Shown here piece by piece: positions 1-18,447 of a DNA stretch of 39,209 bases. The stretch covers positions 1 to 39,209 of the forward strand of contig JANXVC010000308.1 in NCBI GenBank assembly GCA_025351925.1, read 5' to 3'. The position numbers and the translations under genes were made by a program. This DNA is from Rhodospirillales bacterium. Lineage in GTDB: Bacteria > Pseudomonadota > Alphaproteobacteria > Acetobacterales > Acetobacteraceae. The notes below the pieces were generated by a model. It was not told the origin of the DNA and did no database searches. It worked only from the letters and a program-made list of their open reading frames with translations. How positions within the stretch are numbered: the stretch's first letter is position 1; the number at the start of each line of letters is the position of its first letter.

Positions 1-2114
1 TCGCGATCAACAACGCCGACACCACTAAAGGCGAGGTGCTGCGCTACTCCACCAACGCTGCTACGGGTGCCACCACGAGCACGGTCGTCGCGAGCAACTT
101 GAACAACCCGCGCGGCATGTCGTTTGGTCCTGATGGCAACCTGTATGTGCTGGAGCAGGGCACCGGCACCTCGGCCAACGCGCCCGACGCCGCCACTGCT
201 CCCGTGATCCCGTTCATTCCTGGCTTGGTCAGTGAGCGCGGCGGTTACACCGGTTCGATCACCAAGGTGGACATCGCCAGCCCGGCTGGCGGCCAGGATC
301 GCGTTTACACCGGTCTGCCTTCATTCCGTGAGTTCAACCCGACGACGGGCCAGGATCGCGTGATCTCCATTGGCCCGAACGCCCTCACCATCACCCCGGA
401 CGGCACCGCTTACATCGCCTCCGGCGGCGGGCTTGCACCGGAGACGGCCGTCGCGGTTGGCGCGATCGGCGACAACCTGCAGGGTGTGCTGAAGCTCGAC
501 GGGCTGTTCGGCAGCGATCCGTCGAAGGCCACCTACACGGCGCAGTTCAACGCCCTGGCCTACGCGGCAGCGAACGGCCCCGATGGCGCGACGACCCTAT
601 ACAACACCGAAAGCAACCTTTACGACATTCTTCAGGGTTCAGACGGTAAGCTCTATACCGTGGATGCCGCCCGTAACCTTATTTATGGGCTGACCAGCGA
701 CGGCTCGACACTGGACAGCGTAACCGTCATCCAGAAGCAGCCACCCGTGCTGACGCCTCCGCAATATGCGGCCGTGGTTGCAGCCGGCGGTGATCCCACA
801 AAGCAGTATGCGGCCGAGATCGCCAACACTACCTATAAGGCTTCGAACAGCGTGCCGGACGTTCCCGGGAACGTCCCCCTCGCCGGTCTTGCTGCCGCTG
901 CTGCCGCTGCTGGTCTCACGGCGACCGCCGCTTCACCAACCGATCCTGCCGTTCCCGCCGGCACCAATCCCGCGCCACGTGGCGAGGATGGGACCGGAAC
1001 TGGCGTCAGTGGGAGCACGGGCGTCAACTTGACGACCGCTCTGCCTACGCTTCCCGCCGGTGCGAGCTTCGCACCTGCCCTACCCGGGGCGACCGATCCG
1101 GTTAGTCCGCCTGTGTTCGCCGGCAACATCTATTCTAACAACTACAGCCCGTTCTTCGGCAACTATGCTCCTGCACCGTCCGACCCGCTTGCTCTGAAGG
1201 CCGGTGACAGCAACACCTACACCGCGTCGAAGCTTGTCGTGTTTGGCGACCGGCTAGCCGACAACGGCAACACGGTCGCGCTTGAAAAGTCGCTTGGCCA
1301 GGCGCCAGGGGCCACGTCGGTTCCCTACTCGCCGACTGGCAACTTCACAGATGGCCCCAAGTGGACCACCGACCTCGCGCAGATGCTTGGGGCAACGGCG
1401 CCCTCGCAGCAAGAGAACGTCGCCTTCGAAAACGCGACCGGCCGGCCGCTTGGTGTCCCTGACCCGTTTGCTCCCAATGCAAGCAAGACCAACCTTGCGA
1501 CTTTTGCCGGGCAAATCCAGCAGTTCGAGAAGCAGGATGGATCCTTTACGTCGAGCGACGTAGTCTCGGTGACATTTGGCGGTAATGACATCTCGCTGCC
1601 GGGTGACCTGCCGCCGGATCAGGGCGTCACCGCGAGCGTCAATGCGATCATCGCTGGACTGGGCCAATTGGCTGATTTGGGCGCCAAGCATTTCTTGGTT
1701 TCCAACCTGCCGGACATCTCGATTGCGCCGCTGTTCAGCGATCCAGGATTTTTGGCAGCGACGGGAGCGACGCCAGCTCTGTTCCAAGGCTTGGTAGGTG
1801 AGTTCAACACCGAACTTGCCGCCGGACTTAAGAGCTTCCAGGCCTCAACCGGCTTGGACGTCAAGACTTTGGACCTGAATAAATTGTTCCAGGGAATCGT
1901 GAACGATCCCGCCGCATACGGCTTTACCAACATTACCCAGCCAGTGCTCATCAGCACTCCCAACGCTGGCACAAATCCTGTGTACAATCCGGCCATCGTC
2001 GGCCAGGACCCGCAGGTTGAGCATGGTTCGCTGTTCCTTGACCCATTCTTTGATCCGACGGCGTTGGGTCAGGCGCTTATTGCTCAGACCGCTCGCAATA
2101 CCCTTGTAGGTTAA
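1..2114 (+). CDS. ScyD/ScyE-type beta-propeller fused to inactive SGNH/GDSL-like domain (5'-truncated)
   Basis: The reading frame is open through the left edge, so the gene begins outside the window; the GTG at 36 is only an internal codon. The first ~260 visible residues carry blade motifs such as NNPRGMSFGPDGNLYVLEQG, TGSITKVD, RVYTGLPS and ILQGSDGKLYTVDA, matching the ScyD/ScyE family of extracytoplasmic beta-propellers from scytonemin loci. An Ala/Pro/Gly/Thr-rich linker follows. From about residue 395 (counted from 36) an SGNH/GDSL-esterase-like domain begins with VVFGDRLADNGN; block III (FGGNDIS) and a C-terminal FDPTALGQALIAQ are visible. The nucleophile Ser of GDSL is Arg (codon 1251-1253), and the catalytic His of the usual DxxHPT block is absent (DPFFDPT). 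The C-terminal domain is therefore probably non-hydrolytic, perhaps binding or structural. The gene lies just upstream of ScyA- and ScyC-like genes. The family call is confident; the function of the fusion is inferred. Confidence 0.82.
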   Translation, partial: AINNADTTKGEVLRYSTNAATGATTSTVVASNLNNPRGMSFGPDGNLYVLEQGTGTSANAPDAATAPVIPFIPGLVSERGGYTGSITKVDIASPAGGQDRVYTGLPSFREFNPTTGQDRVISIGPNALTITPDGTAYIASGGGLAPETAVAVGAIGDNLQGVLKLDGLFGSDPSKATYTAQFNALAYAAANGPDGATTLYNTESNLYDILQGSDGKLYTVDAARNLIYGLTSDGSTLDSVTVIQKQPPVLTPPQYAAVVAAGGDPTKQYAAEIANTTYKASNSVPDVPGNVPLAGLAAAAAAAGLTATAASPTDPAVPAGTNPAPRGEDGTGTGVSGSTGVNLTTALPTLPAGASFAPALPGATDPVSPPVFAGNIYSNNYSPFFGNYAPAPSDPLALKAGDSNTYTASKLVVFGDRLADNGNTVALEKSLGQAPGATSVPYSPTGNFTDGPKWTTDLAQMLGATAPSQQENVAFENATGRPLGVPDPFAPNASKTNLATFAGQIQQFEKQDGSFTSSDVVSVTFGGNDISLPGDLPPDQGVTASVNAIIAGLGQLADLGAKHFLVSNLPDISIAPLFSDPGFLAATGATPALFQGLVGEFNTELAAGLKSFQASTGLDVKTLDLNKLFQGIVNDPAAYGFTNITQPVLISTPNAGTNPVYNPAIVGQDPQVEHGSLFLDPFFDPTALGQALIAQTARNTLVG

Positions 2115-2221: not shown

Positions 2222-2374
2222 ATGTTGAGGACAGCATCGAGTGTCGAGCTGCCTTGTGTTGCATTCTTTACTAGGCGCGGTATGGCGGTTCTCACCGTCA
2301 TGCCGGTCGTTTCCATTGCACTCAAGCTCACCCGCTTCGGCGTTGGGCAGACTTTACGGAGGATCCGGACATGA
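2222..2374 (+). CDS. Possible 50-residue leader ORF coupled to scyA
   Basis: An ATG at 2222 opens a 50-codon frame (MLRTASSVELPC..., ending ...LRRIRT). Its TGA (2372-2374) overlaps the ATG of the next gene as ATGA, the same coupling used elsewhere in this operon. A weak purine-rich stretch (GAAGAG) lies about 6 bases before the ATG. The product has a hydrophobic middle (MAVLTVMPVVSIAL) and basic ends. It contains no Trp and only one Tyr/Phe-rich patch, so it is not a conventional trp attenuator peptide. It could be a chance frame in the 256-base gap between genes; the overlap is the main argument for it. Confidence 0.25.
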   Translation: MLRTASSVELPCVAFFTRRGMAVLTVMPVVSIALKLTRFGVGQTLRRIRT

Positions 2375-4194
2375 CGGCTGACAGTCTCGCGGAGTTCGGC
2401 GGCGACCTTCTGGAAGCCGATCACACATCGGACCACAGCACGCCGGCGACGGCACTGGCGCCGACGACAGTAGCGGACGGCCTCGCCGCATCGCTTCGCA
2501 GCATGGGTGTATCACACGCGCTCGGCGTTTGCGGCGGCGCACAAGCGTTACTGTGGGCGGCCTTTTCAAAGCACCTGGACGTGTTGCACTTCCGTCATGA
2601 GTGCGGCGCTGCGTTCGCCGCCACCGAGGCGCATTTTGTTAGCGGACGTCCGGTCGTGGTGTTCACGACCACCGGGCCCGGCATCACCAACGTCCTGACC
2701 GGCACGCTCGCGGCACGGAGCGAAGGCGCCAAGCTCGTGCTCGTGACCGCCTATCAGTCCGCGCCGTTCCGGGGCCGTGGCGGTATCCAAGAGACCAGCA
2801 GCTACACTATGCCGACCAGCGCCATGTTTGAGGCCGGTGCCTGGTTCGACGACGCGGTTGTCCTGGAGACGCCGGACCAGTTGCCGCAGGTGCTGCGCCG
2901 CATTGCGGCCGGCCTGCAGCGTGCTGGCGGCTACGTCGCCCATATCAGTATTCCCAACGCGGTGCAGGGCGCGCCTCTCACCAAGCCGTTGCCAACGTTG
3001 ACCGTTCAGCATGCAAACTCCGCCTCGGGCGTATCCAGCCGTCCAGGCGTGAACCGCGCCGCCGTGGCACGCTGCGTCGAGATGCTGACGGCTGAACCGT
3101 TCGCGATCTGGGCAGGTTTCGGCGCCCGCGGCGCTGCGCCGGCACTGCTCAAGTTGGCGGAGCGCGCTGGAGCCCCTGTGATGTGCTCGCCGCGGGCAAA
3201 GGGCGTGTTTCCCGAGGATCATCCGTTGTTCATCGGCGTCACGGGCATGGGCGGACATACCGCTTCCGCCGTGGCCTACATGCAGGAGCATGCGCCGCAT
3301 CGCGTGCTCGTCTTGGGCACCCGGCTGGGTGAGCCGACGTCGTTCTGGAACCCGGCACTCGTCCCGGATGGCGGATTCATCCACGTGGATATCGACTCCA
3401 CCGTGCCCGGCGTCGCTTACCCGCACGCTGAAACCTACGCCGTGCAAGCCGATGTCGGCGATTTCCTGGCGGAACTGCTCGATGCCTGGCCGGCAGCCGC
3501 GGTCGAGACGCTCGCTCCCGCATTGCCGCGCCCGCATCCTAGCCATCCGGTGCCCGGCGGTTCAGGCCGGGTTCGCCCGCACGCTTTGATGTCGGCTATC
3601 CAGCGCAATATTGTGGACGGTACCGACGCTGTTGTGCTCGCCGAATCCGGCAACTCCTTCACCTGGGCGACGCACTACCTTCGGTTTGCACAGCCGCAGC
3701 GGTATCGCGTCAGCACGAACCTCGGCTCCATGGGGCATGCGGCGACCGGCGTGCTTGGTGCGGCGCTTGGACGCGGCGGCAAGGCGGTCGCGATCGTCGG
3801 CGACGGCGCGATGTTGATGAACATGGAGGTCAACACCGCGGCCAAGCAGGGTTTGCCGGTAGTGTGGATCGTGCTGAACGACGGTCGTTACAATATGTGC
3901 TATCAGGGCATGGCCGCGCTGGACATGGCAGGGTTTGCCGACGCTACCTTCCCGCCCACCGACTTTGCGATGCTGGCCCGCGCCATGGGTGCGGACGGCG
4001 CGCGGGTGGAGAGTGAGAACGGTCTGGAGGCTGGCCTGGCGCAGGCGCTCGCTGCGTCGGGACCGTTTGTGCTCGACGTTCTTATCGACGCCGATCAGGT
4101 CGCCCCGACCAATGGACGCAACGAGGGTCTGCGCGTGGCGCGGCCGGTTCAGCGTCACGAGGGTTTCAGCTTCCCGGTCATTGCAGCCAACTAA
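2371..4194 (+). CDS. scyA: ThDP-dependent acyloin synthase, ScyA-like (acetolactate synthase fold)
   Basis: This 607-residue protein has the three-domain acetolactate-synthase/pyruvate-oxidase fold. The Pyr domain carries the cofactor-activating Glu in RHECGAAFAATEA (E77), and the PP domain has the Mg/ThDP motif from GDG (477-479) to ND (503-504). The start at 2371 has a strong SD, GGAGG, 8 bases upstream. A true biosynthetic AHAS would normally be followed by its small regulatory subunit (ilvN/H). Here the next gene is ScyC-like and is followed by trp/aro/tyrA genes, as in cyanobacterial scytonemin loci, where ScyA condenses indole-3-pyruvate with 4-hydroxyphenylpyruvate and loses CO2. About 25 extra residues precede the usual N-terminus. 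The ThDP enzyme call is essentially certain. The ScyA role is inferred from context and could be another acyloin-forming carboligase. Confidence 0.85.
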   Translation: MTADSLAEFGGDLLEADHTSDHSTPATALAPTTVADGLAASLRSMGVSHALGVCGGAQALLWAAFSKHLDVLHFRHECGAAFAATEAHFVSGRPVVVFTTTGPGITNVLTGTLAARSEGAKLVLVTAYQSAPFRGRGGIQETSSYTMPTSAMFEAGAWFDDAVVLETPDQLPQVLRRIAAGLQRAGGYVAHISIPNAVQGAPLTKPLPTLTVQHANSASGVSSRPGVNRAAVARCVEMLTAEPFAIWAGFGARGAAPALLKLAERAGAPVMCSPRAKGVFPEDHPLFIGVTGMGGHTASAVAYMQEHAPHRVLVLGTRLGEPTSFWNPALVPDGGFIHVDIDSTVPGVAYPHAETYAVQADVGDFLAELLDAWPAAAVETLAPALPRPHPSHPVPGGSGRVRPHALMSAIQRNIVDGTDAVVLAESGNSFTWATHYLRFAQPQRYRVSTNLGSMGHAATGVLGAALGRGGKAVAIVGDGAMLMNMEVNTAAKQGLPVVWIVLNDGRYNMCYQGMAALDMAGFADATFPPTDFAMLARAMGADGARVESENGLEAGLAQALAASGPFVLDVLIDADQVAPTNGRNEGLRVARPVQRHEGFSFPVIAAN

Positions 4195-4222
4195 CGCCAA
4201 ACTAAAGCGGAGTACGATCGGC

Positions 4223-5170
4223 ATGGAAAGCAACACCTTCGCAACGTCCACCTATATCGAGACGCAGGAGTCAGCCGCGTTTGAATACCTGCGCGATCTG
4301 CGCAACCTCGATGAGTGGACACTCTACAGCCGCATGATTGAGCAGATGGATGAGAACACCTGGCGCGGCACTGCGTCGGGCTATCAGCACGATCTGTATT
4401 ACCATGTGCGTCCGATCGAGACCGGGATGTTCCGCGGCGTCGAGTGGCACTGCGGGTATGAATACAAGAAGTATTTCCAGTGCTATCCGACGTTCTTGTT
4501 CCCGGCGAGCTACCTGGGTTCTGACGAGCCGGGCGTTTACTTCCACTGGCTCAGCTTCTGTGGCCCGGATCGCCGCACTCCGATGATTATGCAAGGCATC
4601 CATTTGGTGCATACGGCGGAAATCCGTTCGCTGAAGGGTGCCTTGGAGCGTAAGGCTGGCCTCGATCGGGCGGCGCATGGCCGCTTTGAAATCAAGACTA
4701 ACTCCATCTTCGTCGATGCGCCGGTCGAGCTCGCCGCTGACTACCTCGGCAACTTGAAGAATATGGGTGAGTGGGGCTTCTCGGTGCATCCGAACGGACC
4801 CGTCGATCCCGATAGGGGCAGTTTTACGGATGAGTACGGCCAAGAGGTCGAGGTTGTCGTGCGCAACCATGACATGGGTAATTATACGATCATCGAGTTT
4901 GAGCATCGCTACGTGAAGTCGAATTGGACGCAGCGCAGTTGCATGGTGCTCGTGCCCTGCTCCTACGCGTTCGGCAATCCGGAGGCGCGCGGCTGCGTCC
5001 AGCATCGCATTGCGTTCTTTGAGAAGAATGCGATGCCGAAGCACGGCAAGCTGCAGATCGAGGACTACGGCGCGGAGAGCATGAGCCTCAAGCGCGTTCT
5101 GGAGAACAAGGCCGGCAATCTAACCTCGTTTGCGCGGGGCATGAGCTATATCTCCGAGGCCGCAGCATGA
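4223..5170 (+). CDS. scyC: ScyC-like cyclase (tandem SRPBCC-like halves)
   Basis: The 315-residue product is cytoplasmic, with no signal peptide or membrane segment. Start at ATG 4223 with GGAG about 10 bases upstream, 28 bases after the scyA stop. Two halves repeat the same opening pattern: [11 protein letters not shown] (22-32) and [11 protein letters not shown] (174-184), 152 residues apart, suggesting duplicated START/SRPBCC-type cavities as in polyketide-cyclase-like folds. The size, duplicated architecture and position directly after a ScyA-like enzyme match cyanobacterial ScyC, which cyclises and decarboxylates the ScyA product to a tricyclic indole ketone. Its stop overlaps the next start (ATGA), implying coupled translation with trpG. 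ScyC orthology is inferred by memory of family features and synteny; a generic SRPBCC protein is the alternative. Confidence 0.72.
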
Positions 5171-5913
5171 GCGCCGCAAGCGACCAGCCCGGTCTGGCTG
5201 GGGCACCCTGGGGCGGGGCTGAGGGCCTATTGGCAGAGCGCGTCCTGCGACAGGTTGCCGAACGCTCGATACAGCCCGATTTGCAACCTAAAGCGGAGTG
5301 GCAAAGCCCCGCCACGGTCGCAGCACGAACACTGTTTTTGCTCGACAACTACGACAGCTTCACGTTCAACCTGTTTCACCGGCTTGGCGAACTCGGGGCC
5401 AAGGTTGAGGTTGTCCGGAATGACGCACTCACGCCGGATAAGGCGCTTGCCCTTGGGCTCGACGCCGTCGTGGTGTCACCCGGTCCCTGCGATCCCGACC
5501 GTGCGGGAATTTCACTCCGTCTGATTGAGGCTGCCGCAACGGTTTGCCCGGTGCTCGGCGTGTGCCTAGGCCATCAGGCAATCGGCCAGGTGTTCGGCGG
5601 TAAGGTCATCCGCGCACCGGCGCCGATGCACGGCAAGGTCAGCCTGATCCATCATGACGACACTGGCCTGTTCGCCGGCCTGCCCAACCCGTTCCCGGCA
5701 ACGCGCTACCATAGCCTGATCGTCGAACGGAACAGCCTGCCTTCGACGTTGCTCGTCAATGCTTGGACGGAGGACGGTCTAATCATGGGGCTGCGTCACA
5801 CGAGCCTCCCCGTGCATGGCGTGCAGTTCCATCCGGAAAGCATCGAGACGGACGCCGGTCATGCCCTGCTGCGCAACTTTCTCGCGCTCGTGCCGGAGAG
5901 GGCAGGGGCATGA
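5167..5913 (+). CDS. trpG: Anthranilate synthase component II (glutamine amidotransferase)
   Basis: Class I glutamine amidotransferase of 248 residues that supplies ammonia to TrpE for anthranilate synthesis. Visible are [11 protein letters not shown] (60-69), the oxyanion-strand SPGPCDP, the nucleophile in [10 protein letters not shown] (C133), and the His/Glu pair in [10 protein letters not shown] (H222, E224). The family normally starts within a few residues of the LDNYDSF motif and is about 190-200 residues long; here about 55 extra, poorly characterised residues precede it. The start is supported by ATGA overlap with scyC, and no internal start with a good SD is obvious. The stop again overlaps trpD by ATGA. 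PabA (aminodeoxychorismate synthase) is a related possibility, but adjacency to trpD/trpC/trpE favours TrpG. Confidence 0.93.
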
Positions 5914-6935
5914 GCGACGCGCTGCGACCAATCATGGGAGTGCTGGGCAGCGGCGCGCGGCTGAGTGCGGAGCAGACCGAGGCGGCGTTCGACCTTATCA
6001 TGGAGGGCGCCGCAACGCCGTCTCAGGTTGGCGGGCTGCTGATGGCGATGCGCGTCCGTGGCGAGACGGTTGAGGAGATCGTCGGCGCCACACGGGCCAT
6101 GCGCGGGCGCATGCTCCGGGTGTCGGCGCCGGAGGGTGCGATTGATACCTGCGGCACCGGCGGGGATGGGGCGCAGACGCTGAACATCTCGACTGCAGTC
6201 TCGTTCGTGGTCGCTGGCTGCGGTGTGCCGGTTGCCAAGCACGGCAACCGTGCGTTGTCGTCGAAGTCTGGTGCAGCCGACGTACTCGAAGCGTTGGGCG
6301 TCAATATCGATGCAGCGCCGGACGCGGTCGGCCGGGCGTTCCATGAGGCGAATGTCGGGTTTTTGTTCGCCCCGCAGCACCATGGCGCCATGCGGCATGT
6401 CGGCCCGAGCCGGCGTGAGCTCGGCACGCGGACAATCTTCAATCTGCTCGGGCCGTTGTCCAACCCCGCGGAGACCCGGCGGCAGCTGCTTGGCGTGTTC
6501 GCCCCACAATGGCTGGTTCCGTTCGCCGAGGTGCTGCGCGTCTTGGGCAGTGAGCGGGCCTGGATCGTGCACGGCCATGATGGGCTGGACGAACTCACCA
6601 CGACGACCCATTCCTCGGTCGCCGAATTGCGCTTTGGCGAGATCAGGCAGTTTGACGTGGTGCCTGAGCAGGCCGGCGTTGCCCGGGCGACGCTCGATGA
6701 CCTGCGAGGCGGCGACGCGCGGGACAACGCGGCGGCGCTCCGGGCGCTGCTGCACGGCCAGGCCGGGCCATACCGGGACGTCGTGGTGCTGAACGCAGCG
6801 GCGGCGTTGGTGGTAGCCGACCGGGCTGGGGATCTAGGGCGCGGCGCTGAGCTGGCCCGCCGTTCGATCGACTCTGGCGCGGCCGCAGGTCGGCTGGAGG
6901 CGTTGGTGCGTGCCACCAACGGAGTGCTGGCATGA
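5910..6935 (+). CDS. trpD: Anthranilate phosphoribosyltransferase
   Basis: Transfers phosphoribose from PRPP to anthranilate, the second step of the tryptophan branch. The 341-residue product shows the PRPP/diphosphate-binding signature [17 protein letters not shown], the [21 protein letters not shown] segment and the [10 protein letters not shown] motif, all typical of TrpD. Length is normal. The ATG at 5910 overlaps the trpG stop (ATGA), and its own stop overlaps trpC in the same way, so trpG, trpD and trpC form a translationally coupled run. An upstream frame-compatible start within trpG is less likely given this junction. Confidence 0.96.
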
Positions 6936-7729
6936 GCGACAGGCTGGCGGAGATCTGCGCGGTCAAACGCGAGCATGTCGCAGCCTGCAAGGCCCGACGG
7001 CCGTTGCGCGAGGTTGAGGCTGCGCTGCCTAGGCAGCCGCCACGCGGCTTCATCGACGCGTTGCGCGCAATGGTGGCGACAGGGCAGCCTGGCCTGATTG
7101 CCGAAATCAAGCGGGCTAGCCCAAGCAAAGGGTTGATCCGCGCCGACTTCGATCCGGCGACACTGGCGCAGGCCTACGCAGCCGGCGGCGCGGCCTGCCT
7201 GTCCGTGCTGACCGACGGACCGTATTTTCAGGGCGCCGACGAGTACCTCGTTGCAGCGCGCGAAGCGGCTGCTTTGCCGGCGCTCCGCAAGGATTTTACC
7301 ATCGATCCCTATCAGATTTTCGAGGCACGGGCGCTCGGTGCTGATGCAGTTCTGTTGATCATCGCGGCGCTTGACGACGCGCAGGCGGCGGAACTGGAAG
7401 CGGCGGCCCACTCGCTTGGCCTCAACGTGCTGATCGAAGTGCACGACGAGGCGGAGCTGGACCGCGCGTTGCGGCTGCGGTCGCCGCTCATCGGAGTCAA
7501 CAATCGCAACCTCAAGACCTTCGAGGTTGACCTGGCCACGACCGAGCGGCTGGCGCAACTGCTGCCGGCTGGATGCATGCTGGTCTGCGAAAGCGGCATT
7601 AGTACGCCTGCGGACATCGCCCGGATGCGCGCTGCCGGAGCATCCTGCTTCCTGGTGGGCGAGAGCTTGATGCGGCAGGCGGACGTCAGAACGGCGACGG
7701 CGACTCTGCTGGGCAAAGTGCCAGCGTAA
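6932..7729 (+). CDS. trpC: Indole-3-glycerol-phosphate synthase
   Basis: TIM-barrel enzyme of 265 residues converting carboxyphenylamino-deoxyribulose phosphate to indole-3-glycerol phosphate. The catalytic Lys segment [60 protein letters not shown] and the phosphate-binding C-terminal VCESGI...FLVGESLMR are all present. It is monofunctional: there is no fused TrpF (phosphoribosylanthranilate isomerase) domain. TrpF, TrpA and TrpB are absent from the window. The ATGA overlap with trpD fixes the start. Confidence 0.97.
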
Positions 7730-7796
7730 GCGTTTGAAGCGGTAGGACTTTATGGACCACGAGCAACGAGCTCGCTTCGACACGCGAGGACCTAAA

Positions 7797-9335
7797 ATGT
7801 ACGTTTCGACACCACGAAAGTCGTTTGCTGAAGTCTATGACCGCGGCGAGGCACAGGTGGTATGGACCACGCTGGTCGCGGACCTTGAGACGCCGGTTGC
7901 GGCCATGATTAAGCTTGCCGAGGGCCAGCCCTACGGGTTTCTGCTCGAATCGATCGAGGGTGGCGCTGTTCGGGGCCGCTACTCGTATATCGGCCTGAAG
8001 CCCGACCTGATCTGGCGCTGTTTCGGAGAGCGGGCCGAGATCAACCGTACCGTGCAGCTTGGTGGGAATCGTTACGAGCCCTCGCCTTTGCCAGCGCTCG
8101 CCAGCCTGCGGACGCTGATCGAGGAGTGCCGTATCGAGTTGCCGCCGGGTTTGCCGCCGGGCAGCGCCAGCCTGATCGGCTTTTTCGCCTATGACTTCGT
8201 CCGGCTGATCGAGCGGCTGCCGTCCGGCAACCCGGACGAGCTTGGCCTGCCCGACGCTATGCTGATGCGCCCGACCGTGATCGCGGTGTTCGACAACGTG
8301 CTGGACCGCATGACGGTCGTGACGCCGGTCTATCCTACGGAGGGTCTTTCCGCCGCAGTGGCGCACGATCACGCCTGCGAGCGTCTCGCTGGGGTAGCGG
8401 CCGACCTGCGGCGCAGCCTGCCGCACCAGTTCGCGCCGGGTGGGCATGGCGAGGCCAAGGAGCCGGTCTCAAACCACACCAGCGCGGAATACTGCGCAAT
8501 GGTCGAGCAGGCCCAGGCCTACATCCGGGCCGGGGACGCATTCCAGGTCGTGCCGTCGCAGCGTTTTTCACTGCCGTTCACCCTGCCGCCGCTGGCGCTT
8601 TATCGGTCGCTGCGCCGGCTCAATCCGTCGCCGTTCTCGTTCTACCTCAATCTCGGCGACTTCGCGCTGGTCGGCTCCTCGCCGGAGATCCTGGTACGGC
8701 TGCGCGACAACACCGTTACCGTCCGGCCGATCGCTGGAACACGGCCGCGCGGGCGTACGCGGGCGGAAGATATCGCGCTCGAACAGGATCTGCTCGCCGA
8801 CCCAAAGGAGCTGGCAGAGCATCTCATGCTGCTTGATCTCGGTCGCAACGACGTAGGCCGTGTCGCCAAGGTCGGCTCGGTGCGGGTGACCGAGAAGATG
8901 ATCGTCGAGCGCTACTCGCACGTCATGCACATCGTGTCTAACGTGGAGGGCGAGCTCGACCCGGCGCGCGCCGACGTGCTCGACGTGTTGTGCGCGGGCT
9001 TCCCGGCCGGCACGGTGTCGGGTGCCCCAAAGATCCGTGCGATGGAGATTATCGAGGAGCTGGAGCCGACGCGGCGCAGCTTCTACGCCGGCGGCATCGG
9101 CTACATCGGCGCGGATGGCAATCTGGACACCTGCATTGGGCTGCGCACCGGATTAGTGAAGGCGGGCATGCTGTATGTTCAGGCGGGGGGTGGAGTGGTC
9201 GCCGACTCTGATCCCGAGGCGGAATACCTTGAGTCTTGCAACAAGGCCAAAGCGCTGCTGCGCGCCGCAGAAGAAGCCATGCGTTTTGATGGAACAGGGA
9301 TCGCGCATCACGCGGAATACGGAATGGCTGATTGA
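7797..9335 (+). CDS. trpE: Anthranilate synthase component I
   Basis: Converts chorismate plus ammonia (from TrpG) to anthranilate. The chorismate-binding core is complete: PIAGTRPRGRT, a LLDLGRNDVGRV segment, SHVMHIVSNVEG, FPAGTVSGAPKIRAMEII and YVQAGGGVVADSDPEAEY. The N-terminal domain keeps the LLES tryptophan-feedback motif (residues 49-52), so feedback sensitivity is probably retained. I prefer ATG 7797 (512 residues) because GAGGA lies 6 bases upstream; an in-frame ATG at 7752 with AGGA would add 15 residues and cannot be excluded. In many alphaproteobacteria trpE precedes trpG, whereas here it follows trpC after a 67-base gap, an order unlike the common trpEGDC layout. Confidence 0.95.
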   Translation: MYVSTPRKSFAEVYDRGEAQVVWTTLVADLETPVAAMIKLAEGQPYGFLLESIEGGAVRGRYSYIGLKPDLIWRCFGERAEINRTVQLGGNRYEPSPLPALASLRTLIEECRIELPPGLPPGSASLIGFFAYDFVRLIERLPSGNPDELGLPDAMLMRPTVIAVFDNVLDRMTVVTPVYPTEGLSAAVAHDHACERLAGVAADLRRSLPHQFAPGGHGEAKEPVSNHTSAEYCAMVEQAQAYIRAGDAFQVVPSQRFSLPFTLPPLALYRSLRRLNPSPFSFYLNLGDFALVGSSPEILVRLRDNTVTVRPIAGTRPRGRTRAEDIALEQDLLADPKELAEHLMLLDLGRNDVGRVAKVGSVRVTEKMIVERYSHVMHIVSNVEGELDPARADVLDVLCAGFPAGTVSGAPKIRAMEIIEELEPTRRSFYAGGIGYIGADGNLDTCIGLRTGLVKAGMLYVQAGGGVVADSDPEAEYLESCNKAKALLRAAEEAMRFDGTGIAHHAEYGMAD

Positions 9336-9374
9336 TGCGGCTGGATCCGAATAACTGACGAATAGGGTTTTGCC

Positions 9375-10814
9375 ATGAATGACTTCGCAAATTTCGTAGC
9401 GGAAGAGTTCGTAGCCTCGACTGCAGAAAGCTACCCGACCGCTTGGTCGCCGGACTCGTGGCGAGCCTATCCGGTCCAGCAACTGCCGACCTACGACGAC
9501 ACAAGTCACCTTGCAGATGTGGAGAGCCGGCTGCGCCGTTCGCCGCCGCTCGTGTTCGCTGGCGAGGTACGCATCCTGCGCCGCAAGCTCAGTGAGGTGG
9601 CGGCTGGCCGAGGCTTCCTGCTTCAAGGGGGCGACTGCGCCGAGAGCTTCGCCGAATTCCATGCCGATAACATCCGCGACAGCCTGCGCGTGCTGCTGCA
9701 GATGGCGGTCGTGCTCAAATTTGGCGCCGGGGTGCCTGTGCTGAAGCTCGGCCGCATGGCGGGACAGTTCGCCAAGCCGCGTTCGTCCGACGTCGAGCGG
9801 CAGGGCGACCTGGAACTGCCCAGCTATCGCGGCGACATTGTCAACGGCTTCGATTTCACGCCCGCGGCCCGGCGGCCCGATCCCGAACGGCAGATTCAAG
9901 CCTACTCGCAGGCCGCTTCGACGCTCAATCTGCTGCGTGCGTTCACCGGCGGCGGCTATGCCAGCCTGGCCAACATGCACAAGTGGAACCTGGATTTTGT
10001 CGCCAACTCGGCGCAGGGCGCGCGCTACGAGGATTTGACGACTCGCATCTCGGAGGCGCTCGACTTCATGGCGGCCTGCGGCATTTCTGACCTGACCACG
10101 CCGCCGATGGCGCACACCACGCTGTACACCTCGCACGAGGCGCTGCTGCTCGGCTTTGAGGAGGCGATGACCCGCACCGACTCCCTCAGCGGCGGCCATT
10201 ACAATACCGCCGCACATTTCATATGGATCGGCGACCGGACGCGTGATCCCGACGGCGCGCATGTCGAATACATGCGCGGCCTCGACAATCCGATCGGCCT
10301 TAAAGCGGGGCCAAGCATGACACCGGACGCTCTGCTGCGCCTGCTCGACATCCTTGATCCACGCAATGAGGCGGGACGCATGACGCTGATCGTGCGTATG
10401 GGGCACGACAAGCTCGCCAAGCATTTGCCGCCGCTGGTTCGGGCCGTGCAGCGCGAGGGCCGGTCAGTGGTTTGGTCGTGTGATCCCATGCACGGCAATA
10501 CGGTCAAGGCGGCGTCGGGCTACAAGACCCGGCCATTCGACCGCATTATGGACGAGGTCGAGAGCTTCTTTGCCGTGCACCACGCCGAGGGCACCTACCC
10601 CGGCGGCATCCACATCGAAATGACCGGGCAAAACGTCACTGAGTGTACCGGCGGCGCGCAGGCGATCACCGATGCAGCGCTGTCAGACCGTTATCATACG
10701 CACTGCGATCCCCGCCTGAACGCGCAGCAGAGCCTGGAGGTCGCCTTCCTGCTGGCGGAGAAGCTGAAGACGGCGCGGCAGGACCGGGTGGCGAATGGGC
10801 TGGGTGCCGTATGA
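9375..10814 (+). CDS. aroG: Class II 3-deoxy-7-phosphoheptulonate synthase
   Basis: First committed step of the shikimate pathway, joining PEP and erythrose-4-phosphate. The 479 residues match the plant/actinobacterial class II type: [11 protein letters not shown] (metal-ligand Cys), [15 protein letters not shown], the [11 protein letters not shown] His motif, [18 protein letters not shown], and [16 protein letters not shown]. It lacks a fused chorismate mutase. It sits 39 bases after trpE and overlaps tyrA by ATGA, so it belongs to the same aromatic-supply operon. Cyanobacterial scytonemin loci likewise carry an extra DAHP synthase gene. Whether this is the only copy in the genome cannot be judged here. 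Confidence 0.96.
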
Positions 10815-11815
10815 CGCTCGATCATGGCGGCGAGACAATGCCGGAGAGCGGTCCGCATCGGCCATACAAGGCGCCACTGTTCCGGAAAATCACCTTCGTA
10901 GGACTCGGCCTCATCAACGGATCGATCGCCCGCGACGTGCGGCGCCTGGGTTTGGCCGAACGCCTGGTCGGGACTGCACGGCGGACGGAGACGCTCGATC
11001 AGGCTTGTGCGTTGGGCTTGGTGGACGAGGCGACGCCGAATGCCGCCGCCGCGGTTCGGGATGCGGATCTCGTGGTGCTCGGCGTTCCGGTCGGCGTCAG
11101 CGGCGAGGCAGCCCGTGCGGTGGCGCCCGGCCTGTCTGCTGATGCAATCGTGACCGATGTCGGCTCGGTAAAAGGCAAGGTCATCGAGCTCGTTGCGCCG
11201 TATCTCGATATGCGGCGCTTCGTCCCCGGACACCCTGTTGCCGGGACGGAGAAGTCTGGTCCGGCGGCGGCTATCGAGCGTCTGTTTGAAAACCGATGGT
11301 GCATTCTGACGCCGCATTCCGCGACCGACGCTGCAGCGACCGAGCGGGTCGCAACGCTGTGGCGCGCGCTGGGTTCTAATGTCGAGCTCATGGAGCCTGC
11401 GCACCACGACAAGGTGCTGGCCATCACCTCGCACCTCCCGCATCTGCTTGCCTTCAATATCGTCAACACGGCCGATGACCTTGAAGGCGTGTTGAAGGGT
11501 GAGGTGCTCAAGTATGCGGCGGGTGGCTTCACGGATTTCACGCGCATCGCTGCCTCGGACCCGACCATGTGGCGAGACGTGTTCCTGCATAACAAAGTCG
11601 CGGTGCTTGAGGTTATTGGCCGCTACATCGAGGATCTCATTGCCTTGCAGCGCGCAATTCGCTGGGACGAATCTGATGCTTTGTTCGAGCGTTTTGAGAG
11701 TGCGCAAGCCATTCGGCGAGAGGTGGTCCGCGCTGGTCAGGCTTACAAGCGGGTGCCGAGTGCGAGGTATCATCGCGTTAACGATCGACGACAGCTCAGT
11801 CGAAATCTCGTCTAA
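10811..11815 (+). CDS. tyrA: Prephenate/arogenate dehydrogenase
   Basis: NAD(P)-dependent oxidative decarboxylase of the tyrosine branch, 334 residues from the ATG that overlaps the aroG stop (ATGA). The Rossmann motif is [12 protein letters not shown], and the catalytic-site segments [21 protein letters not shown] and [11 protein letters not shown] (catalytic His) are present, followed by the helical dimerisation domain. If it uses prephenate it directly yields 4-hydroxyphenylpyruvate, one of the two ScyA substrates; if arogenate, it yields tyrosine. Sequence reading alone cannot settle the substrate. An upstream in-frame start inside aroG would add a poorly conserved 56-residue tail and is rejected. 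It is the last gene before an AT-rich gap and so probably ends the operon. Confidence 0.93.
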
Positions 11816-12073: not shown

Positions 12074-13672
12074 ATGGCAAATGATAGCACCGGCGGCCCG
12101 CCAGCCGATAGCAATGCACCCAACGTTTTCGGTCCCGGCTCCTTTGGTCAGACCGGCTCGAGCGGCAGCAATAACGCTGGCGTGATCGCGCCCGGAAGCG
12201 CCAACGTCGCAGTGGGCAGCAATGCTGACACCTCGGCTGCCGGATACGCCGCTGCTAACCAGGGCGCTCCTGGTCAGGACAACAACGTCGGCGTGATCAC
12301 GCCCGGCGGCTCCGATGTTACCCTCAGCGGCGGTAATGGACGCTTCGTGATCGACTACACCCAGCCGTCGCCAATCGATGGTTCGGTGAATACCGGCGGC
12401 AACGTCGTTCACGTCACGGGCGGCAACAATCAGTTTGTCGTGAAGTTCAAGCCGGACAGCTCTGGCACCGATGCGAGCAGCTTCGGCAGCAATTCGGTCG
12501 CGGTTGACGGCGGCAATAACCAGTTTGTCGTCGTGTATGACTATTCAGCGTTCACCAGCGGCAGCCCCTCAGGCGACAACGTCACCGTGAACGGCGGCAA
12601 CAACGCGTTTGTCGTCAGCTACAGCGGCCCGTCGCCCAACGACGCCGCAAGCAGCAGCGCAGTGAACATTGGCGGCGACAACAACCAATTCGTCGTTGCG
12701 TATGCCGTCCCCGCGGCGGCAGGCAGCGGTGGTGCGGACGCTGGCAGCGCAGCGGGCGGCAATCCGTTTGCGGGCGGCAGCAGCGCCGCACCCGCCGGTG
12801 CGGGCAGCGGCGGCAACCCGTTCGCCGGCTCGGCGGGCGGTAATCCCTTCGGCGCTGCAGGCGGCGCCAGCACATCTGGAGGCAGCAGCATGAGTTCTAT
12901 GGATATGACAGGCAGCATGGGCGGAGCCGCTGGCGGCAGCAGCGCTGATCTTAACGCGTCGCTGAGGCAGAGCCCGTTCGGCAGCCTGCTCGATCTGCCA
13001 GGCGTCACTGCCGAGACCATTTTCGGCAACATCAACCCGAACGACTATTCGTCCACGGGAGGTAATCCCTTTGCGGGCGCGGCGCCGGGAAGCAACCCAT
13101 TCACTAACTATCCCGGGACCACCGGCCTGTTCTCGGCCGCGACAAACGCCGGCGCTGCAAGCAGTGGCGCGGGCGCCCCGAGCGGTGGCGGTAACCCCTT
13201 CGCTGGCGGCAGCATGGGAGGCGCGCCAGCCATCGGTGGAAGCGCTCCTGCCAGTGATGGGAGTGCTCCGGTCAGCAGCAGCGATCAGGCGGCAATGCCG
13301 AGCGATCCGACTGGTGCGGGGGCTGGCGCGCTAGCTACTGCTGGCAGTGGCAGCCCTGATGCAGGTGGCGCTCCCGTCCCCGGCGGCGACGCTGCCTCTT
13401 TCTTGGCAGCAAGCCCGTTCGGGCCGCTATTGAGCCTGCCAGGCTTCAGCGCCGATGCGTTGCTGGCTAGCCTGAGCGGCGGCAACAACTTTGCGGCCAT
13501 CGCCGGCCTTGGCGGACCCAACAATCCGTTCGGTGACACCGCAAGCAGTCCTGTTGCCGCTGGCAGCCCTGACAGCAGTGGCCCCTCGGCGAGCGACATC
13601 ACGTCGTCGGTCTTTGCGCAGATTTCGAGTGATGGCGGCTCGACCACACAGATGATTATGCCAACCGTCTAA
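12074..13672 (+). CDS. Gly/Ser/Asn-rich repeat protein of unknown function
   Basis: The family is not recognised. The 532-residue product starts at ATG 12074, 10 bases after AGGAGG. The N-terminal third has five copies of a beta-strand-like motif of the form V-x-V-x-GGNNQFVVxY at roughly 25-30-residue spacing (about residues 87-210), which suggests a beta-solenoid or stacked sheet. The rest is low-complexity Gly/Ala/Ser with repeated GGNPFAG. Two longer motifs, SPFGSLLDLPGVTAETI (around residue 299) and SPFGPLLSLPGFSADAL (around 446), repeat each other. There is no Sec signal peptide, membrane helix or Cys. A surface or matrix protein exported by a non-Sec route is possible. It sits inside the scytonemin-like region with its own promoter region and terminator, so any link to the pathway is conjecture. 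Confidence 0.75.
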   Translation: MANDSTGGPPADSNAPNVFGPGSFGQTGSSGSNNAGVIAPGSANVAVGSNADTSAAGYAAANQGAPGQDNNVGVITPGGSDVTLSGGNGRFVIDYTQPSPIDGSVNTGGNVVHVTGGNNQFVVKFKPDSSGTDASSFGSNSVAVDGGNNQFVVVYDYSAFTSGSPSGDNVTVNGGNNAFVVSYSGPSPNDAASSSAVNIGGDNNQFVVAYAVPAAAGSGGADAGSAAGGNPFAGGSSAAPAGAGSGGNPFAGSAGGNPFGAAGGASTSGGSSMSSMDMTGSMGGAAGGSSADLNASLRQSPFGSLLDLPGVTAETIFGNINPNDYSSTGGNPFAGAAPGSNPFTNYPGTTGLFSAATNAGAASSGAGAPSGGGNPFAGGSMGGAPAIGGSAPASDGSAPVSSSDQAAMPSDPTGAGAGALATAGSGSPDAGGAPVPGGDAASFLAASPFGPLLSLPGFSADALLASLSGGNNFAAIAGLGGPNNPFGDTASSPVAAGSPDSSGPSASDITSSVFAQISSDGGSTTQMIMPTV

Positions 13673-17262: not shown

Positions 17263-18447
17263 GTGACCATGTTCCAGACCCTGCAGCCGCAACCCGCCGA
17301 CGGGCTGCTCACCCTCATCGGCCTGTTTCGCGACGATCCGCGCAACAGCAAAATCGATCTCGGCGTCGGGACCTATCGGAATGCGGCCGGCGTCACCCCG
17401 GTCATGGAGGCGATCAAGTCGGCGGAGCGGGTGCTGCTCGAAGGCCAGCAGACCAAAGCCTATCTCGGCCCAGAGGGCGATCAGCGCTTCGTCGAGTTGC
17501 TGATGCCGATCGCCTTTGGCACCTCCGGCGCCCATGCCGGACGGCTTGTCGGGGTGCAAACACCCGGCGGCGGCGGTGCACTGCGGCTGGGCGGCGAGTT
17601 GATCACTGCGGCCCGGCCCGGCGCCAAGGTGTGGTTGGGGATGCCGACTTGGCCCAATCACCGCCCGGTTCTCGAAGCCGCCGGCCTGACGGTTGTCGAA
17701 TACCGCTACTTCGACCCGGACACGCAGTCGCTATGCTTCGACGACATGCTCGCGGCGCTCGCAACCGCTGAGGCCGGCGACGTCGTGCTGCTGCACGGCT
17801 GCTGCCATAACCCGACGGGCGCCGAGCTTGAGCCGGCTCAGTGGGACGCGGTCGCCGCGCTGATCGCCGAGCGCGGTCTTATGCCGTTCATCGACCTCGC
17901 CTATCAGGGCCTAGGGGAAGGGCTTGAGGCCGATGCGTACGGGACGCGCCGCGTGCTCGCCTGCGTCGAGGAGGCCTTGGTTGCCTATTCCTGCGACAAG
18001 AATTTCGGGCTTTATCGCGAGCGGACCGGGGCCTTGTTCGTGCTGTCCCGCGACGAGGCCGCTGCCTCCGTCGTCTATGGCAACCTGCTGGCTCTCGCCC
18101 GGGTGAACTGGTCGATGCCCCCCGACCATGGGGCCGCGGCGGTGCGTACCATCTTGGAATCGAAGGAGCTGAGGCGCGTGTGGCGGGCTGAGCTTGAGGG
18201 CATGTGCCGGCGCATCAACCAGGTGCGCGAGGCCCTGACGGCGGCCCACCCACGATTGGGCTTTCTGTCGCGTCAGCGCGGCATGTTCTCACAGCTGCCG
18301 ATCACGCCCGCGGCCGTCGCGGCGCTCCGCAATGACCATGGCATCTATATGGCCGGCAGCGGTCGCATCAACCTTGCGGGGCTGCAGATTGCTGATGCCG
18401 AGATATTTGTCGGCGCCCTAGTCGCGGTTGGCGGTCTGCCGGCATGA
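17263..18447 (+). CDS. Aromatic/aspartate aminotransferase (class I, PLP)
   Basis: A fold-type I aminotransferase of the aspartate/aromatic (TyrB/AspC) subgroup, 394 residues. The PLP Lys is in SCDKNFGLYRERTG (K246), with CHNPTG (N183), DLAYQG (D211, Y214) and the C-terminal carboxylate-binding Arg in GRINLAG. GTG 17263 is chosen because AGGA lies 7 bases upstream; an ATG two codons later is too far. Such enzymes interconvert tryptophan/indole-3-pyruvate and tyrosine/4-hydroxyphenylpyruvate. In this setting it could generate the keto-acid pair consumed by the ScyA-like enzyme, possibly in place of ScyB. Its substrate preference cannot be read from sequence. Confidence 0.9.
   Translation: MTMFQTLQPQPADGLLTLIGLFRDDPRNSKIDLGVGTYRNAAGVTPVMEAIKSAERVLLEGQQTKAYLGPEGDQRFVELLMPIAFGTSGAHAGRLVGVQTPGGGGALRLGGELITAARPGAKVWLGMPTWPNHRPVLEAAGLTVVEYRYFDPDTQSLCFDDMLAALATAEAGDVVLLHGCCHNPTGAELEPAQWDAVAALIAERGLMPFIDLAYQGLGEGLEADAYGTRRVLACVEEALVAYSCDKNFGLYRERTGALFVLSRDEAAASVVYGNLLALARVNWSMPPDHGAAAVRTILESKELRRVWRAELEGMCRRINQVREALTAAHPRLGFLSRQRGMFSQLPITPAAVAALRNDHGIYMAGSGRINLAGLQIADAEIFVGALVAVGGLPA

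Follow-up and report, generated by a model that had tools for sequence, protein, structure and literature searches.

Scytonemin has been described as unique to cyanobacteria, and the gammaproteobacterium Methylocaldum marinum alone was named for ScyC matches outside this group (PMC9796282). In Nostoc, ScyE is essential for scytonemin production, through a role that is unknown, and the cyanobacterial protein carries an N-terminal signal peptide and is predicted to be periplasmic (PMC4870267). Little is understood of how scytonemin assembly proceeds in its late steps (PMC4870267). We report here on a window of 39,209 nucleotides, i.e., the whole stretch of DNA that was analysed, which opens with a fusion gene lying beside ScyA- and ScyC-type genes. 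Its product is a real, conserved and unusual variant assembled from two known families: judged from its sequence, it is a permuted ScyD/ScyE propeller followed by a linker and by an SGNH domain of the secreted or autotransporter esterase type. The parts of the fusion gene and the two genes that lie beyond it are:

3..2114, plus strand: fusion protein, C-terminal 703 aa, in one open frame with no start codon
81..818, plus strand: half of a ScyD/ScyE-family propeller, profile positions 1-205 (NCBIfam NF033206)
840..1205 (approximate), plus strand: Ala/Pro/Thr-rich linker from the propeller to the SGNH domain (orthologue alignment)
1218..2111, plus strand: degenerate SGNH/GDSL domain, Lipase_GDSL (Pfam, model and fold comparison)
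2371..4194, plus strand: ScyA-like ThDP enzyme, 812 bits and thus under the ScyA equivalog cut-off of 1020, with 54% identity to Brasilonema ScyA
about 4226..5170, plus strand: ScyC, scytonemin-type cyclase, 450 bits for a cut-off of 400, with 54% identity to Brasilonema ScyC

The 5' end of the fusion frame is cut: base 1 of the window is the first base of contig C331. Compared with the 903-aa orthologue of a related genome (G001, see below), about 190 N-terminal amino acids are absent, and a search of the same genome for the missing end, with the full-length orthologue as query, returned a match to C331 alone. Within the window frame, the ScyD/ScyE-family profile NF033206 matches aa 27-272 with 97 bits for a cut-off of 80 (full-length relatives score 174 and 188 bits), and Pfam Lipase_GDSL (PF00657) matches aa 411-646 with 49.3 bits for a cut-off of 23.6. 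The linker is of low complexity and, in the alignment, differs in length among the orthologues.

Such orthologues are present in three other genomes of the window's genus, called here G001, G002 and G003. The protein of G001 is 78% identical to that of the window and the protein of G003 (895 aa) 64% identical, and the G002 contig stops before the SGNH domain. The SGNH domain is known from three sequences (window, G001 and G003) and the full N-terminus from G001, G002 and G003. These full-length N-termini start with MSDTTTSTADTSATGAAPGGGG; by eye, they display no hydrophobic stretch and no classical signal peptide is apparent. In the four genomes of the genus, the fusion is the sole ScyD/ScyE-family protein over the cut-off. 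A preliminary description of this DNA had regarded such a fusion beside indole-alkaloid genes as an unfamiliar architecture, and indeed it was found in no other genus searched: among the genomes, plasmids and viral contigs covered, a fusion beside ScyA/ScyC genes was seen in the window's genus alone. Elsewhere, no propeller-SGNH fusion was detected in 397 sampled genomes of the family and 299 sampled genomes of the phylum, or among plasmids or viral contigs. A wider contig scan, from which near relatives of the window's genome may have been left out, yielded propeller relatives only among the matches listed.

The preliminary description had also recognized a ScyD/E propeller. The match to NF033206 over its cut-off upholds this family assignment, but the order is not the ordinary one and, by profile and pairwise comparison of sequences, the propeller is a circular permutation of the cyanobacterial ScyD/ScyE arrangement. 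A collinear match to NF033206 fails in G001, G002 and G003, as the two halves of the profile are swapped, with positions 194/197-332 standing upstream of positions 1-203. In the G001 protein, for instance, aa 46-206 correspond to profile positions 199-332 and aa 218-460 to positions 1-202. The swapped order was also read from the DNA of the three genomes, and BLAST against Calothrix and Brasilonema ScyD/ScyE returned two segments in swapped order. When the propeller was re-cut, alignment scores of 149-207 rose to 225-328 and the best cut point stayed constant, and cutting brought no gain when cyanobacterial ScyD/ScyE were compared among themselves. The window keeps only the second half of the propeller, followed by the linker and the SGNH domain, so that the permutation is invisible there. 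The scyD and scyE genes of Brasilonema adjoin each other in tandem (L013), and we suggest that two such genes fused and that their outer halves were lost. As for the descent of each half from ScyD or from ScyE, the two origins are not separated by BLAST scores obtained with a single Brasilonema pair.

The second partner of the fusion has been altered at its catalytic centre. The relevant positions of the SGNH domain are:

1251..1253, plus strand: block I, CGG codon giving Arg in place of the catalytic Ser and reading VVFGDRLADNGN (codon read; alignment of orthologues and homologues)
1350..1352, plus strand: Asp in place of the Asn of FSNG, Asp in all three orthologues (Asn invariant in 31 aligned homologues)
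1428..1430, plus strand: block II, Glu in place of Gly, Glu in all three orthologues (31 homologues: Gly in 27, Ala in 4)
1578..1589, plus strand: block III, GGND intact (also in G001; GDYD in G003)
2031..2060, plus strand: block V, LFLDPFFDPT without His (His to Asp, codon 2052-2054)

These readings confirm that, as first described, Arg stands at the GDSL nucleophile, the catalytic His block reads DPFFDPT and the GGND block is kept. The accompanying view that only Ser and His were lost from an otherwise intact domain holds in part: the SGNH fold and most fold-determining positions are retained, but the block II Gly has become Glu and the D-x-x-H loop of block V carries a one-residue insertion. 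Blocks I and V read FGDRLADNGN and DPYFNPT in G001, and FGDRLSDTGN and NPFYDTT in G003. Alignment of homologues, proposed at the outset as a check on the Arg, places Arg at the nucleophile position in the three sequences (window, G001 and G003) and Ser in 32/32 homologues examined, these being SGNH domains of other genera in the window's family. Similarly, the block V His is replaced by Asp in the window and G003 and by Asn in G001, and is present in all 32 homologues. The block III Asn is found in the window and G001 and is Tyr in G003, which is also devoid of the block V Asp.

The 31 aligned homologues had been chosen by a pattern requiring Ser, and a pattern open at the nucleophile position served as a check. 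One locus matching neither pattern (L067) was read directly and keeps both Ser and His (FGGSQSDAGN, DHMHLT). The open pattern and this direct reading together lift the selection bias; about twenty weaker matches with no assigned locus were left out of the reading. As a separate observation, block III reads GGFD, and not the usual motif, in one of the three SGNH genes of genome G173 (L048, 505-1359).

At least 27 of the 31 homologues in the alignment agree at 45 columns. The three orthologues retain 30 of these, are mixed at 8, have lost 4 and have switched 3 to a new fixed residue. The switched columns are Ser to Arg, the Asn of FSNG to Asp and the block II Gly to Glu; all are now charged, and two of the three are the active-site positions of blocks I and II. 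Overall, the polar residues fixed in the three orthologues at or near the former active-site blocks are Arg, Asp, Glu, a further Arg and the Glu-His of VEH. The nucleophile Arg is encoded by CGG in the window and G001 and by CGC in G003, and the block II Glu by GAA, GAA and GAG, so that both residues persisted through synonymous change. The passage of three near-invariant positions to fixed charged residues looks like repurposing, not rot.

The SGNH domain is under purifying selection. Its dN/dS (NG86, three pairs) amounts to 0.15 (bootstrap 0.11-0.21), 0.22 (0.12-0.31) and 0.37 (0.29-0.50), close to the values of the propeller, and these ratios are approximate since synonymous divergence is high. 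In the tree, the three SGNH domains form one clade, whose stem is long (1.76) and whose tips are short; the place of this clade among esterases is weakly supported (80/55). The initial proposal of a catalytic loss with selective retention of the domain thus agrees with ratios well below 1, with the Arg and missing His shared by the three sequences and with the Ser and His kept by the 32 homologues. Strain-specific decay or a sequencing error, also envisaged at that stage, was not borne out, as relatives at 78% and 64% identity share the changes; decay or error is ruled out by the conservation in three assemblies together with dN/dS. Taken more broadly, plain pseudogenisation of a fused domain no longer needed, or an error in the sequence, would account for the disappearance of several catalytic residues and for faster evolution on the stem. 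It is nonetheless extremely improbable considering that three assemblies share the changes in frames that are open throughout, that dN/dS lies between 0.15 and 0.37 and that the residues determining the fold are for the most part retained. The pattern is better explained by a new use of the domain, which then came under constraint, than by rot.

Structure prediction and superposition, which had been put forward as a further check, model the domain as an SGNH fold. The AlphaFold2 model (13 sequences) has a pTM of 0.73 and a mean pLDDT of 65, and fold comparison gives a Z of 21.7 to ChoE, about 20.5 to PlaA and 17.6 to EstA. Retention of the overall SGNH fold is supported by this model of moderate confidence, and the detail of the pocket lies beyond its support, the active-site loops having a pLDDT below 50. 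According to entry titles, the S38A and H288N mutants of ChoE were crystallized with acetylthiocholine, and an SGNH pocket without Ser or His can therefore still bind a ligand. The poorly modelled loops also leave room for a re-formed catalytic site, including the other Ser/His pair envisaged in the preliminary description. Alternatively, the domain might have become a re-invented enzyme, with the Arg/Glu/Asp set or the His of VEH performing new chemistry on an indole-alkaloid intermediate. Such an idea would make sense of the new polar residues fixed in all three orthologues in or close to the former active-site blocks, and late scytonemin assembly is poorly enough understood to accommodate it (PMC4870267). 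We consider it distinctly improbable, as no known enzyme with this Arg/Glu/Asp residue set was found and as neither the block V Asp nor the block III Asn is conserved in G003.

The role of the fusion protein is probably one of binding or scaffolding, not of catalysis. Our main reading, to which we assign a probability of roughly 0.6, is that of a non-catalytic, remodelled ScyE analogue endowed with a binding or docking pocket and taking part in a scytonemin-like indole-alkaloid pathway of a non-cyanobacterial genus. The SGNH domain would be unable to hydrolyse esters by the SGNH mechanism, and its pocket, re-lined with the conserved Arg, Glu and Asp, would have turned into a binding or docking site. 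The propeller would perform the ScyE-type job, and the fusion would keep a pathway intermediate, product or partner near the site of the late, ScyE-dependent steps. The pigment or its polysaccharide matrix, suggested in the preliminary description as what the domain might bind or scaffold, would be conjectural targets. A more complete scenario is possible and put forward tentatively: ScyE would have been replaced by this one fusion, the propeller being permuted via fusion and trimming of the tandem scyD-scyE pair and the SGNH esterase being converted into a charged-pocket binder of the intermediate or product.

The main rival takes the SGNH domain for a structural or targeting appendage, of use as a spacer or for stability or secretion and fused after its activity was lost, in which case the propeller alone would work and the pocket would bind nothing particular. 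The variable, low-complexity linker would suit an appendage of this kind, part of the pocket does drift in G003 (block III Asn and block V Asp), and, with no apparent Sec signal, the domain could serve another export route. However, the same charged residues occupy three near-invariant positions in all three orthologues, and a spacer would not require the nucleophile position to be fixed as Arg or the oxyanion position as Glu, which makes this alternative rather unlikely.

The genes surrounding the putative ScyE analogue give its possible context. Directly downstream of scyA and scyC, within the region 2371-11815, are trpG, trpD, trpC and trpE, together with a class II DAHP synthase gene and a prephenate dehydrogenase gene. 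Genes for a shikimate kinase, an EPSP synthase and an aminotransferase are found farther downstream in the window. ScyB gave no match at E 0.001 or better in the four genomes of the genus, so the product may be something other than scytonemin. The window encodes a class I/II aminotransferase at 17263-18447, which could provide indole-3-pyruvate in place of ScyB. An EboE gene lies on another contig, off the scy-like cluster (G000:C346, L122, 446 bits; G001:C605, L123, 441 bits; cut-off 250), that of G001 having a weak EboC-like neighbour. ScyC was present in 3 of the 397 genomes of the family, all three of the window's genus, and over the cut-off in 1 of 385 genomes of the class, namely the window's own. 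Judging from the homologues, the host is probably an alphaproteobacterium close to Acetobacteraceae. Two further observations concern the window itself. A 532-aa frame at 12074-13672, in the cluster region, matches no Pfam or NCBIfam profile at the cut-offs applied. The gap between the fusion gene and scyA harbors a hairpin at 2163-2186, with a perfect 10-bp stem and a TTCG loop (GATGACGGTC-TTCG-GACCGTCATC); a different short hairpin occupies this gap in G001 and none passes the filter in G003.

A rearranged ScyE fused to a catalytically disarmed domain would offer a handle on the contacts of ScyE and on the need for catalysis. With this locus, one more lineage outside cyanobacteria is seen to have ScyA- and ScyC-type genes, and its SGNH domain would be a clear example of an esterase that became a conserved non-enzyme.

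With the ScyD/ScyE family (NF033206), the fusion protein shares the whole profile, covered by its two halves, and the adjoining ScyA- and ScyC-type genes. It differs from this family by its swapped halves, its C-terminal SGNH domain, an identity of about 30%, and the lack of a PEP-CTERM match and of a classical signal peptide apparent by eye; unlike its cyanobacterial counterparts, it occurs as a single copy and not as a ScyD/ScyE pair. Its SGNH domain resembles secreted esterases of the ChoE, PlaA and EstA type (PF00657) in fold, block spacing and most structural residues, whereas the Ser, the block II Gly and the His are replaced, block V carries an insertion and a propeller stands in front. 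Finally, unlike the scyABCDEF cluster of Nostoc and Brasilonema, the locus has no ScyB match and no separate ScyD/ScyE pair, includes an aminotransferase gene in the window and belongs to a non-cyanobacterial host; like that cluster, it combines ScyA and ScyC homologues with adjoining trp and aro supply genes, EboE being encoded elsewhere.
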